Origin: Pelolinea sp.
GTDB lineage: Bacteria > Chloroflexota > Anaerolineae > Anaerolineales > Anaerolineaceae
Direction of reading: 5' to 3'
Length of the DNA: 64,000 nucleotides
Assembly (NCBI GenBank): GCA_012797975.1
Contig: JAAZOD010000020.1
Location: 62,001-126,000, forward strand
Below are positions 24,121-25,976 of this stretch, one piece after another. Position 1 is the first letter of the stretch; every line of letters starts with the position of its first letter. The notes under the pieces are model-generated. The model saw only the letters and a list, made by a program, of their open reading frames with translations. It did no database searches and had not been told where the DNA came from. The position numbers and the translations under genes were made by a program.

Positions 24121-24148
24121 TTGACAGAATGTCTGCCAATGCTATAAT
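24121..24148 (+). promoter_or_regulatory. Sigma-70 type promoter of deoR
   Basis: TTGACA (24121-24126), 16 nt spacer, TATAAT (24143-24148), both perfect. The deoR ATG at 24214 has AGAGAGG upstream, leaving a leader of about 60 nt that contains the candidate operator. Confidence 0.85.
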
Positions 24149-24159
24149 GTTCTCAACCG

Positions 24160-24192
24160 TGCAAAAAGCGACAAAGGATTTGTTATCTTGCA
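24160..24192. promoter_or_regulatory. Candidate DeoR operator in the deoR leader
   Basis: TGCAA (24160-24164), N6, ACAAA (24171-24175), N12, TTGCA (24188-24192). The same pattern with a 13-nt second gap occurs upstream of btpA at 25923-25956. It begins about 5 nt past the expected transcription start, fitting autorepression. Confidence 0.6.
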
Positions 24193-24213
24193 CCATGAAG
24201 AGAGGTTTCTGCG

Positions 24214-24981
24214 ATGCTATCGGATGAACGACGGGCGGCCTTGATCAATCAATTGCGCGAAAGCGGATATGTTCAAGCAGCGCAGATGGCGCAGAAATTA
24301 CAGGTGTCCACCGCCACCATCCGGCGCGATCTGGCCGAACTTGAGCAGGAAGGATTTTGCACCCGAACGCATGGGGGAGCGGTGCGCTCTTCACAAGGCA
24401 CCACCCTCGAACTGCCCTACGAAGTGAAGAAACAGAAGTTCGTTCTCGAAAAAGAACAGATCGCCCGCGAGGCGCTCAAGCTAGTCGAGGATGGCGATAC
24501 ATTGATCCTGGACTCCGGCTCCACCACTTATGCGCTGGCCAGGTTGCTGACCGAGAAACAGCGGCTGACGGTGGTAACCAACGACCTGCAGATTGCCACC
24601 TTGCTGGCTTCGAACCCGGCCATCCATCTGGTCTGCACCGGTGGAATTGCCCGGCCGCATGTGTTCACCTTGCTGGGAGCTGATGTGGTTGAGTTCATCC
24701 AAAAACTCAAGGTGGATAAAACTTTCCTCGGAGCCGATGCGATCCATACGGATGGATCCATTGGCAATGTGAACATCGAAGAAGTGGCGATCAAGCAAGC
24801 CATGATGAAAGCCGCGTCTTCCGTGATCTTGCTGGCGGACTCCTCGAAATTTTCCATGACCGGATTTGCCAGAGTGGGTACTTTTTCGGATGTGGATGTG
24901 CTGATCACCGATGCCGGTTGCCCGGAAAAAATGAAAGCAATGATCCGGGATGCCCACAGAAAATTGATCATTGCCCGGTAA
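24214..24981 (+). CDS. DeoR-family sugar-metabolism repressor
   Basis: A 255-residue regulator with the N-terminal DeoR helix-turn-helix (about 6-57: RRAALINQLRESGYVQAA, then STATIRRDLAELEQEGF) and the DeoR sensor domain (ISOCOT fold). The latter shows DGDTLILDSGSTTYALA, TVVTNDLQIATLL, CTGGIARP, DKTFLGADAI, and ILLADSSKF. Such proteins sense phosphorylated sugars. The convergent btpA-family gene carries a matching operator, so btpA is the proposed target. The pairing recalls the E. coli sgc locus, where a DeoR-type gene (sgcR) and a BtpA-family gene (sgcQ) occur together. Confidence 0.92.
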   Translation: MLSDERRAALINQLRESGYVQAAQMAQKLQVSTATIRRDLAELEQEGFCTRTHGGAVRSSQGTTLELPYEVKKQKFVLEKEQIAREALKLVEDGDTLILDSGSTTYALARLLTEKQRLTVVTNDLQIATLLASNPAIHLVCTGGIARPHVFTLLGADVVEFIQKLKVDKTFLGADAIHTDGSIGNVNIEEVAIKQAMMKAASSVILLADSSKFSMTGFARVGTFSDVDVLITDAGCPEKMKAMIRDAHRKLIIAR

Positions 24982-25063
24982 GGTGAATGGTCCTTGCCAA
25001 TCAAACAGCACAACTTGAGCGGAATCCAGATTATGCTGTTCGAAGAGGTATGGAAAATTAATA

Positions 25064-25882
25064 TTAAAAATTTTTGCGAAAGTCTTTTACCTTATCCATA
25101 AAAGCTTTCACCCGCTTTTTATCCACCGCATTCTGAAAAACCCCATCTATTTTAAAGGTGGTTGCCACCACCGCGCCATCGGCAATGCCAAGCTGTTCTT
25201 CGACGTTTTCCAACCGCACACCGGTGTTGGCAAAGACCACCGTATCGGGTACGGCATCTTTCACCAGTTTCAAGGTGGCTGTATCGGTCTGCATACCGGC
25301 GGTCAAACCGGAAACACACAAAGCGTCGGGCAAATGGTTGAAGACGGTCGAGCGGGCCACTTCGCGGATGTCGCGCGGGGCAAGGTAACGCGCCGCTTCG
25401 GGAACAATATTGAACAGCAGCTTTACATTCTCTGCGCCGAGGGCGTGCTGGTGCCGGATCACCTCGCCGCAGTTGGTGTTCCATAAGCCGAAATCGCTGG
25501 CGTATACTCCCGAAAAGATCTCGCGCACGAACCTGGCATCCACTGCTGCAGCAAGGTCGAGGGATGCAAAGGGGTCCCACAGCACATTCACACCATAAGG
25601 AACGGTAATCTCTGACATCAGTTCGCCGATGACGCGTGCCATGGCTGCCGTGGTTTCGGGTTTCACCTTCAACAGGTAGGGGAGACTGAACTCGTTGGAA
25701 AACATGATGCCGTCCACACCACCCTCTTGCAGGGCCACCAGGTCCGCCCTGGCAAGCTGGACGACCCTCTCCATCCCTGCGGATCTATCAAAACCGGGGT
25801 CGCCCGGCATGGCCTGCAGGTGACACATGGCAATGATCGGTTTGGGGGTGTGAAAGATACTTTCAGTCCAATATGTTTTCAT
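25064..25882 (-). CDS. BtpA/SgcQ family protein (TIM-barrel, putative nucleoside/sugar-phosphate-related enzyme)
   Basis: A 272-residue protein of the BtpA family: IAMCHLQAMPGDPGFD near the N-terminus, EGGVDGIMFSNEFSLPY, VPYGVNVLWDPFASLDLA, CVSGLTAGMQTD, FANTGVRLENV, and a C-terminal VATTFKIDG. The founding member, cyanobacterial BtpA, affects photosystem I stability, but most members in heterotrophs sit with sugar genes and look like TIM-barrel enzymes of unknown reaction. The ATG at 25882 has a GAGG ribosome-binding site; the longer frame up to 25969 runs through the candidate operator and is not used. It converges on deoR. Confidence 0.82.
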   Translation of the reverse strand: MKTYWTESIFHTPKPIIAMCHLQAMPGDPGFDRSAGMERVVQLARADLVALQEGGVDGIMFSNEFSLPYLLKVKPETTAAMARVIGELMSEITVPYGVNVLWDPFASLDLAAAVDARFVREIFSGVYASDFGLWNTNCGEVIRHQHALGAENVKLLFNIVPEAARYLAPRDIREVARSTVFNHLPDALCVSGLTAGMQTDTATLKLVKDAVPDTVVFANTGVRLENVEEQLGIADGAVVATTFKIDGVFQNAVDKKRVKAFMDKVKDFRKNF

Positions 25883-25922
25883 CGTAACCTCGCTTTGAAT
25901 CGCAAAATCTCTAGCAGAAGCA

Positions 25923-25956
25923 TGCAATAATGAACAAATTAATGTAATATATTGCA
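25923..25956. promoter_or_regulatory. Candidate DeoR operator upstream of btpA
   Basis: Read on the plus strand: TGCAA (25923-25927), N6, ACAAA (25934-25938), N13, TTGCA (25952-25956). The outer arms extend to TGCAATA and TATTGCA. It lies between the btpA -10 box and its ATG. Confidence 0.6.
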
Positions 25957-25967
25957 CAATAACAAAC

Positions 25968-25976
25968 ATTATATCA
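25968..25976 (-). promoter_or_regulatory. Extended -10 promoter element of btpA
   Basis: On the minus strand TG-A-TATAAT, a perfect extended -10 element. No clear -35 box is seen, which is typical for extended -10 promoters. The transcript would start near 25961, just before the candidate operator. Confidence 0.65.

Follow-up and report, generated by a model that had tools for sequence, protein, structure and literature searches.

A candidate operator shared by the deoR and btpA leaders of a Pelolinea genome

In a 64,000-nucleotide stretch of a Pelolinea sp. genome (the window), the neighbouring genes deoR and btpA carry in their leaders a common nested inverted repeat, set in the same register just past the promoter. 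Taken as a whole, these observations are quite probably best explained if both sites are candidate operators through which the neighbouring DeoR would repress itself and btpA, if the two genes are what is left of a larger module, and if BtpA works on a sugar phosphate. Conservation among relatives lends good support to a putative DeoR operator common to the two genes. The features concerned, in window coordinates, are the following.

24121..24148, plus strand: deoR promoter, with TTGACA (24121-24126), N16 and TATAAT (24143-24148), and a TG before the -10 box; promoter scan 12/12.
24159..24193, no strand assigned: candidate deoR operator, nested dyad G-TGCAA-N6-ACA-N7-TGT-N4-TTGCA-C, 11 nt past the -10 box.
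24214..24981, plus strand: deoR, DeoR-family repressor of 255 aa (P0001); Pfam HTH_DeoR 5.5e-17, DeoRC sensor domain 2.2e-50.
25064..25882, minus strand: btpA, BtpA/SgcQ family, 272 aa (P0002); PF03437 1e-90, TIGR00259 1.5e-97; ATG at 25882.
25923..25957, no strand assigned: candidate btpA operator, on the minus strand a nested dyad TGCAA-N6-ACA-N6-TGT-N6-TTGCA, 11 nt past the -10 box.
25968..25976, minus strand: extended -10 of btpA, TGATATAAT, read from the sequence; -10 box 25968-25973.

An earlier note on this DNA had drawn attention to a string common to the two leaders, TGCAA-N6-ACAAA-N12/13-TTGCA, and the string is real: it matches the window exactly twice, at 24160-24192 (N12) and 25923-25956 (N13), and none of 100 dinucleotide shuffles of the window. 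As a description of the element it was incomplete, since the full form of both sites is a nested inverted repeat with an outer TGCAA/TTGCA and an inner ACA/TGT pair. The spacers are 6-7-4 in the deoR site and 6-6-6 in the btpA site, which, read on the btpA strand, is the evenly spaced dyad TGCAA-TATATT-ACA-TTAATT-TGT-TCATTA-TTGCA. The note was right that the genes are convergent and that each element lies just downstream of a consensus-type promoter, TTGACA-N16-TATAAT (12/12) for deoR and an extended -10 for btpA, the latter being absent from the promoter-scan output and recognised by reading the sequence. Since both sites start 11 nt after the -10 box, they would span approximately +5 to +38 of the transcripts, counting from the predicted start of transcription. 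A longer reading of btpA, from an ATG at 25969, would run through the operator and is unlikely; when the sister btpA is read in its long form, the alignment begins just three codons before the short start.

Throughout the 2.57 Mb genome (G000), the outer pair TGCAA/TTGCA alone, at N24-27, occurs 30 times, a count that includes the btpA site and leaves out the deoR site with its gap of 23; the information must therefore be carried by the inner boxes and the spacing. When the btpA-spaced pattern was searched in G000 with up to three mismatches, there were 36 and 43 matches on the two strands, against 7 and 6 for the pattern written backwards, a control of unmatched composition because TGCA becomes ACGT. 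The btpA site itself has 0 and 1 mismatches and the next best matches, at three places, have two; the deoR site of G000 escapes this pattern, its spacers being different.

Both proteins are securely placed at the family level. By Pfam, P0001 belongs to the DeoR family (PF08220, 61.7 bits against a cut-off of 21; PF00455, 171.1 against 31.8), and it falls below the cut-offs of all 18 NCBIfam models listed for it. The best-scoring of these, AgaR (NF040755), was rejected as an identity, with 196.2 bits against the 260 required. P0002 is a member of the BtpA/SgcQ family (PF03437, 304.1 bits, cut-off 30; TIGR00259, an NCBIfam subfamily model, 326.1 bits, cut-off 153.4), and the photosystem I biogenesis equivalog NF045918 was likewise discarded (158.5 bits against 400). 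Between G000 and the sister genome G003, deoR is under purifying selection (dN/dS 0.08, dS 1.6; dS was not estimable for btpA and two other pairs). The DeoR proteins of G000, G003, G135, G134, G041 and G002 (a third genome of the same genus) have in common the recognition helix S(S/T)ATIRRDL. G000 also holds a second BtpA (C13:32350-33150, L063; 34% identity), close to a gene for an EIIC-GAT permease at C13:34844-36019, and a third at C11:70678.

The earlier note had made its case depend on conservation at related loci, and here the outcome is divided. The strict string TGCAA-N20..30-TTGCA is found in 0 of 29 other BtpA-family loci (L016-L045), which were taken with 1.5 kb flanks that leave some deoR leaders outside; only the window's own two sites have it. 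What the relatives do conserve, to judge from the comparison of their leaders, is a looser form of the nested dyad that keeps its register past the -10 box. We derived a box matrix solely from the two window sites, fixed the spacing rules and scanned whole loci of eight other genomes; the deoR leader came out on top in three of them: G003 (48,758 positions), G135 and G134 (35,994 each). It did not do so in G020, G022, G023, G002 and G041; in G041 a high-scoring match ahead of the EIIB gene was discarded, as it lies inside an apparent coding sequence. Nine other deoR/btpA leaders of 64 nt gave single-base-shuffle p values of 0.001, 0.001, 0.001, 0.016, 0.022, 0.028, 0.33, 0.34 and 0.68, thus at or below 0.03 in six of the nine. 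The best match falls 10-11 nt past the -10 box in eight of the nine, G022 being out of register; even the weakly matching deoR leaders (G002, p 0.33; G023, 0.34; G041, 0.68) keep the register. Further btpA leaders behave similarly: that of the btpA stub on C8 of G002 (p 0.0095, 12 nt past the -10 box), that on C11 of the same genome (0.056, 11 nt) and that of G001 (0.010, 11 nt).

The register was also put against a background of TATAAT boxes in 26 sequences, with training sites excluded and boxes up to 330 nt before deoR or btpA counted as theirs. The best match begins 10-12 nt after the box in 9 of 13 such cases and in 11 of 144 elsewhere (Fisher 7e-7), although these leaders are related by ancestry, so that neither register nor similarity can be counted as independent and the p values overstate their independence. 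Four boxes do not follow: those of an operon-internal btpA, of a DeoR paralogue (27% identity) and of the deoR of G021, and a second TATAAT before the btpA of G001. Read by eye, the deoR leaders of G057, G062, G061 and G021 have no clear site of this nested-dyad kind.

These comparisons bear on the simplest alternative, a chance likeness of two AT-rich leaders. In its favour one could cite the failure of the strict string in the 29 loci and the commonness of its outer pair in the genome; the empty shuffles, the retention of the site in other genomes and the ability of a two-site matrix to pick out the deoR leaders of three further genomes speak so clearly against it that we regard coincidence as extremely improbable.

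To obtain a genome-wide view, we have employed a profile, R1, made from seven sites and searched against 11 genomes, scoring no more than 150 first-look candidates per genome. The 58 resulting rows comprise the seven training sites, the reverse of one of them and 50 others. Both window sites, as training sites, were found again in the whole of G000 (btpA, E 5.1e-7; deoR, E 1.5e-4), where there were just two more rows, one in the leader of a DeoR paralogue (C28:138707) and one at E 7.2. As the window sites are so far ahead (E 5e-7 and 1.5e-4, then 0.15), the regulon in G000 is probably limited to deoR and btpA. Eight of the 50 other rows fall in the 300 nt that precede a BtpA or DeoR gene or what remains of one, with an estimated chance expectation below 0.1 at a maximum of about 12 such genes per genome. 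They include the sites before the btpA remnant of G002 (C8:2940, E 0.003), before the other btpA of that genome (C11:18790, E 0.025) and, in register, before the btpA of G001 (C151:18930-18973, L051, E 1.0), a genome approximately 92% complete in which no orthologue of this DeoR was found. The other five precede DeoR-family paralogues (G000:C28:138707, G001:C149:23886, G002:C59:55070, G004:C7:5575 and G004:C6:3092; E 0.15 to 2.9), and hence this DeoR is not the only one to have such a site. A ninth row, G020:C1:148822, precedes an ORF that by eye resembles the start of a DeoR. For the remaining 41 rows no BtpA or DeoR neighbour was identified, DeoR genes outside the genus being listed only to E 1e-40; among these are G134:C56:21428 (L268) and G134:C45:11558, with E values of 0.014 and 0.035. 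R1 gave no rows in G022 and G023.

The R1 results raise the possibility that another regulator, either a DeoR paralogue or one of LacI type, controls both genes through these sites. Its advocates could point to the btpA site kept in G001 and to the R1 matches in the leaders of DeoR paralogues, five further DeoR-family matches being present in G000 itself. Nevertheless, it is this particular deoR whose leader carries strong sites in G000, G003, G020, G135 and G134, and autoregulation is a habit of the DeoR family. Moreover, excerpts of one study locate DeoR-family sites in 5' UTRs or on promoters (PMC8579813), as would be the case here. We therefore think it unlikely that a different protein is the principal binder, but in G001 a paralogue may bind the site before btpA, given that no orthologous DeoR was found there.

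The inverted repeats could also be read as RNA hairpins in the 5' leaders, serving as an attenuator or a processing signal, and not as DNA sites. Some of the leaders are indeed foldable: those of deoR and btpA in G000 reach -8.4 kcal/mol (z -1.4) and -10.2 (z -2.3), and that of deoR in G003 reaches -12.8 (z -2.9). However, seven of the ten folded sites show no clear advantage over shuffles (z -0.95 to +0.63) and there is no Rfam match up to E 1, which together disfavour such a reading; the two window leaders contain no terminator-like site either. We consider hairpins a very improbable explanation.

If the sites are indeed DNA operators, DeoR would bind both leaders at approximately +5 to +38, probably as stacked dimers, with outer (R)CA and inner ACA/TGT boxes occupied at a distance of roughly one helical turn. 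Such binding would block transcription of deoR and btpA, and a phosphorylated sugar held in the DeoRC domain would, by analogy with the family, release the repressor. At L272:1470-1620 (contig C1 of G020), another nested dyad, ACACAT..GAACAT..ATGTTC..ATGTGT, precedes an ORF that looks like another DeoR; from this example, the two-tier operator may be general in the DeoR family.

The gene content of the locus varies within the genus. Its fullest version is that of G003, where deoR-rpe faces btpA, a class II aldolase gene diverges from btpA, and the flanking genes are the same as in the window. With the same flanks, G002 has deoR, rpe and the aldolase gene, and its btpA is a C-terminal stub of 36 codons (L110:2779-2886, on C8) between rpe and the aldolase; before this stub the operator (2940-2982) and a promoter-like -10 are still recognisable. 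At the same place G000 has deoR and btpA only. Its homologues of the absent genes lie elsewhere and are distant (RPE 33% and 37% identical, aldolase at most 36%), as compared with 75% and 79% identity between the G003 and G002 proteins. Because of the btpA stub in G002 and the gene content of other genera, loss in G000 seems more likely than gain elsewhere, and the deoR and btpA of the window would thus be the remnant of a larger module.

Relatives of this DeoR with at least 45% identity occur in 13 of 147 genomes of the family, the next reaching at most 40%. Whole sgc-like PTS operons in other genera begin with a deoR that has such a leader: G020, G135 and G023 have the run DeoR, EIIC-GAT, ADH, SDR, M42, BtpA, RPE, EIIA, EIIB. 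G134 and G061 have the same type of PTS operon without BtpA in the run (L160, L163). More distant DeoR relatives head operons with an ABC transporter and an FGGY kinase, as in G057 and G062 (DeoR, ABC transporter, M29, FGGY kinase); BtpA comes next in G062, and the G057 stretch ends inside the kinase gene. The "self-contained DeoR-BtpA regulon" of the earlier note thus holds for the window genome alone, presumably as a product of gene loss; it does not extend to the sister genome, with its rpe and divergent aldolase, or to the other genera with their whole operons.

The note's parallel with SgcR/SgcQ is apt for the gene content of relatives. Like E. coli sgcXBCQAER (SgcQ = BtpA, with SgcX, SgcE, SgcABC and SgcR), G020, G135 and G023 combine DeoR, a GAT-type PTS (EIIC-GAT, EIIA, EIIB), M42, BtpA and RPE. 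The window itself has no such operon, only deoR and btpA, and the relatives differ from E. coli in adding ADH, SDR and aldolase and in having ABC/kinase versions. Published work describes the E. coli sgc operon as a PTS of unknown sugar specificity (PMC5797941), comprising PTS IIA/B/C, the epimerase-like SgcE and the zinc hydrolase-like SgcX (PMC13343008). As of July 2026, excerpts of the latter source report that the sgcABCEQX module is induced in nitrogen-containing slow-growth conditions, that sgc mutants have no growth defect in the conditions tested, and that substrate and functions are not established, a pentitol-related metabolism being proposed (PMC13343008). In these excerpts SgcQ is described with PTS chaperone-like features and not as an enzyme, which differs from the reading of BtpA preferred here (PMC13343008). 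In the literature, as far as its texts were available, we found neither a described SgcR operator nor an assigned BtpA/SgcQ reaction, which is no proof of absence in print. The cyanobacterial BtpA of photosystem I biogenesis shares the Pfam family with the window protein, which fails its equivalog model.

What BtpA does can be approached through its neighbours. We surveyed the best 80 of at least 508 relatives in public genomes (64-76% identical to the window BtpA), using a single-query tblastn and distances of at most 6 kb; contigs were often short, and full flanks were available for 49 of the 80. Among these best 80 loci, FGGY kinase genes are found near BtpA in 53, M29 or M42 in 41, DeoR in 30, RPE in 14 and EIIC in 8; EIIC and FGGY occur together in a single locus, and 12 loci have none of FGGY, M29/M42, EIIC, RPE and DeoR. 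The PTS and the kinase thus seem to replace each other, suggesting that BtpA acts after phosphorylation. As to the peptidase-family genes, M42 accompanies the PTS-type operons around BtpA (L048, L159, L049) and M29 the ABC-type ones (L162, L052, L053, L175), and in the wider set of 80 loci M42 is also found beside ABC and FGGY genes (L191, L195, L200, L222).

The AlphaFold model of BtpA (34 sequences, pLDDT 90.8) belongs to the phosphate-binding (beta-alpha)8 barrels. Its closest folds are tied, with hexulose-phosphate synthase at Z 18.5, HisF at 18.2 and KDPGal aldolase at 18.0, and Foldseek matches it to the RPE 4nu7 at E 7e-8; no solved structure is related to BtpA by sequence, the best E being 0.55. 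Such a predicted, shared barrel fold by itself shows no function. Asn219-Thr-Gly and Asp235-Gly are invariant in the 34 sequences and lie at strands 7 and 8, where barrels of this type hold the phosphate. A predicted phosphate-binding TIM barrel whose usual neighbours are a sugar kinase or a PTS permease is likely to be a sugar-phosphate enzyme. Since PTS and ABC plus FGGY-kinase operons both occur under related DeoRs, BtpA would most likely act on the sugar phosphate that results from PTS uptake or from the kinase. The earlier note had hoped that the regulon would reveal the substrate class; gene context does indicate a likely one, a phosphorylated sugar or polyol, without naming the substrate. 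A more detailed scheme, which we put forward tentatively and regard as possible but doubtful, would have BtpA/SgcQ proteins as sugar-phosphate enzymes in a route fed by a PTS or by ABC plus FGGY with a phosphorylated sugar or polyol conjugate. An M42/M29 hydrolase would remove an amino-acyl or similar group, RPE (with or without aldolase) would lead to central metabolism, and DeoR would sense a phosphorylated intermediate.

As a regulatory device, the operator is of the ordinary local DeoR switch type. The window DeoR has the same HTH_DeoR and DeoRC domains as the local autoregulating repressors of sugar operons of GlpR, AgaR and FruR type, but differs from them in its two-tier nested dyad with TGCAA/ACA boxes. 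Excerpts on the DeoR-family regulators of Caldicellulosiruptor describe sites between promoter and start codon, beside sugar genes, as in the window (PMC8579813). The operator is useful as a way in: through it, a btpA that stands alone is connected with a regulator whose relatives are found at the head of complete sugar operons, and the place suggested for BtpA/SgcQ is after phosphorylation and before the ribulose-phosphate epimerase. With the module reduced to a repressor, its operators and one putative enzyme, the sugar phosphate could be identified by screening inducers against DeoR and the two leaders.
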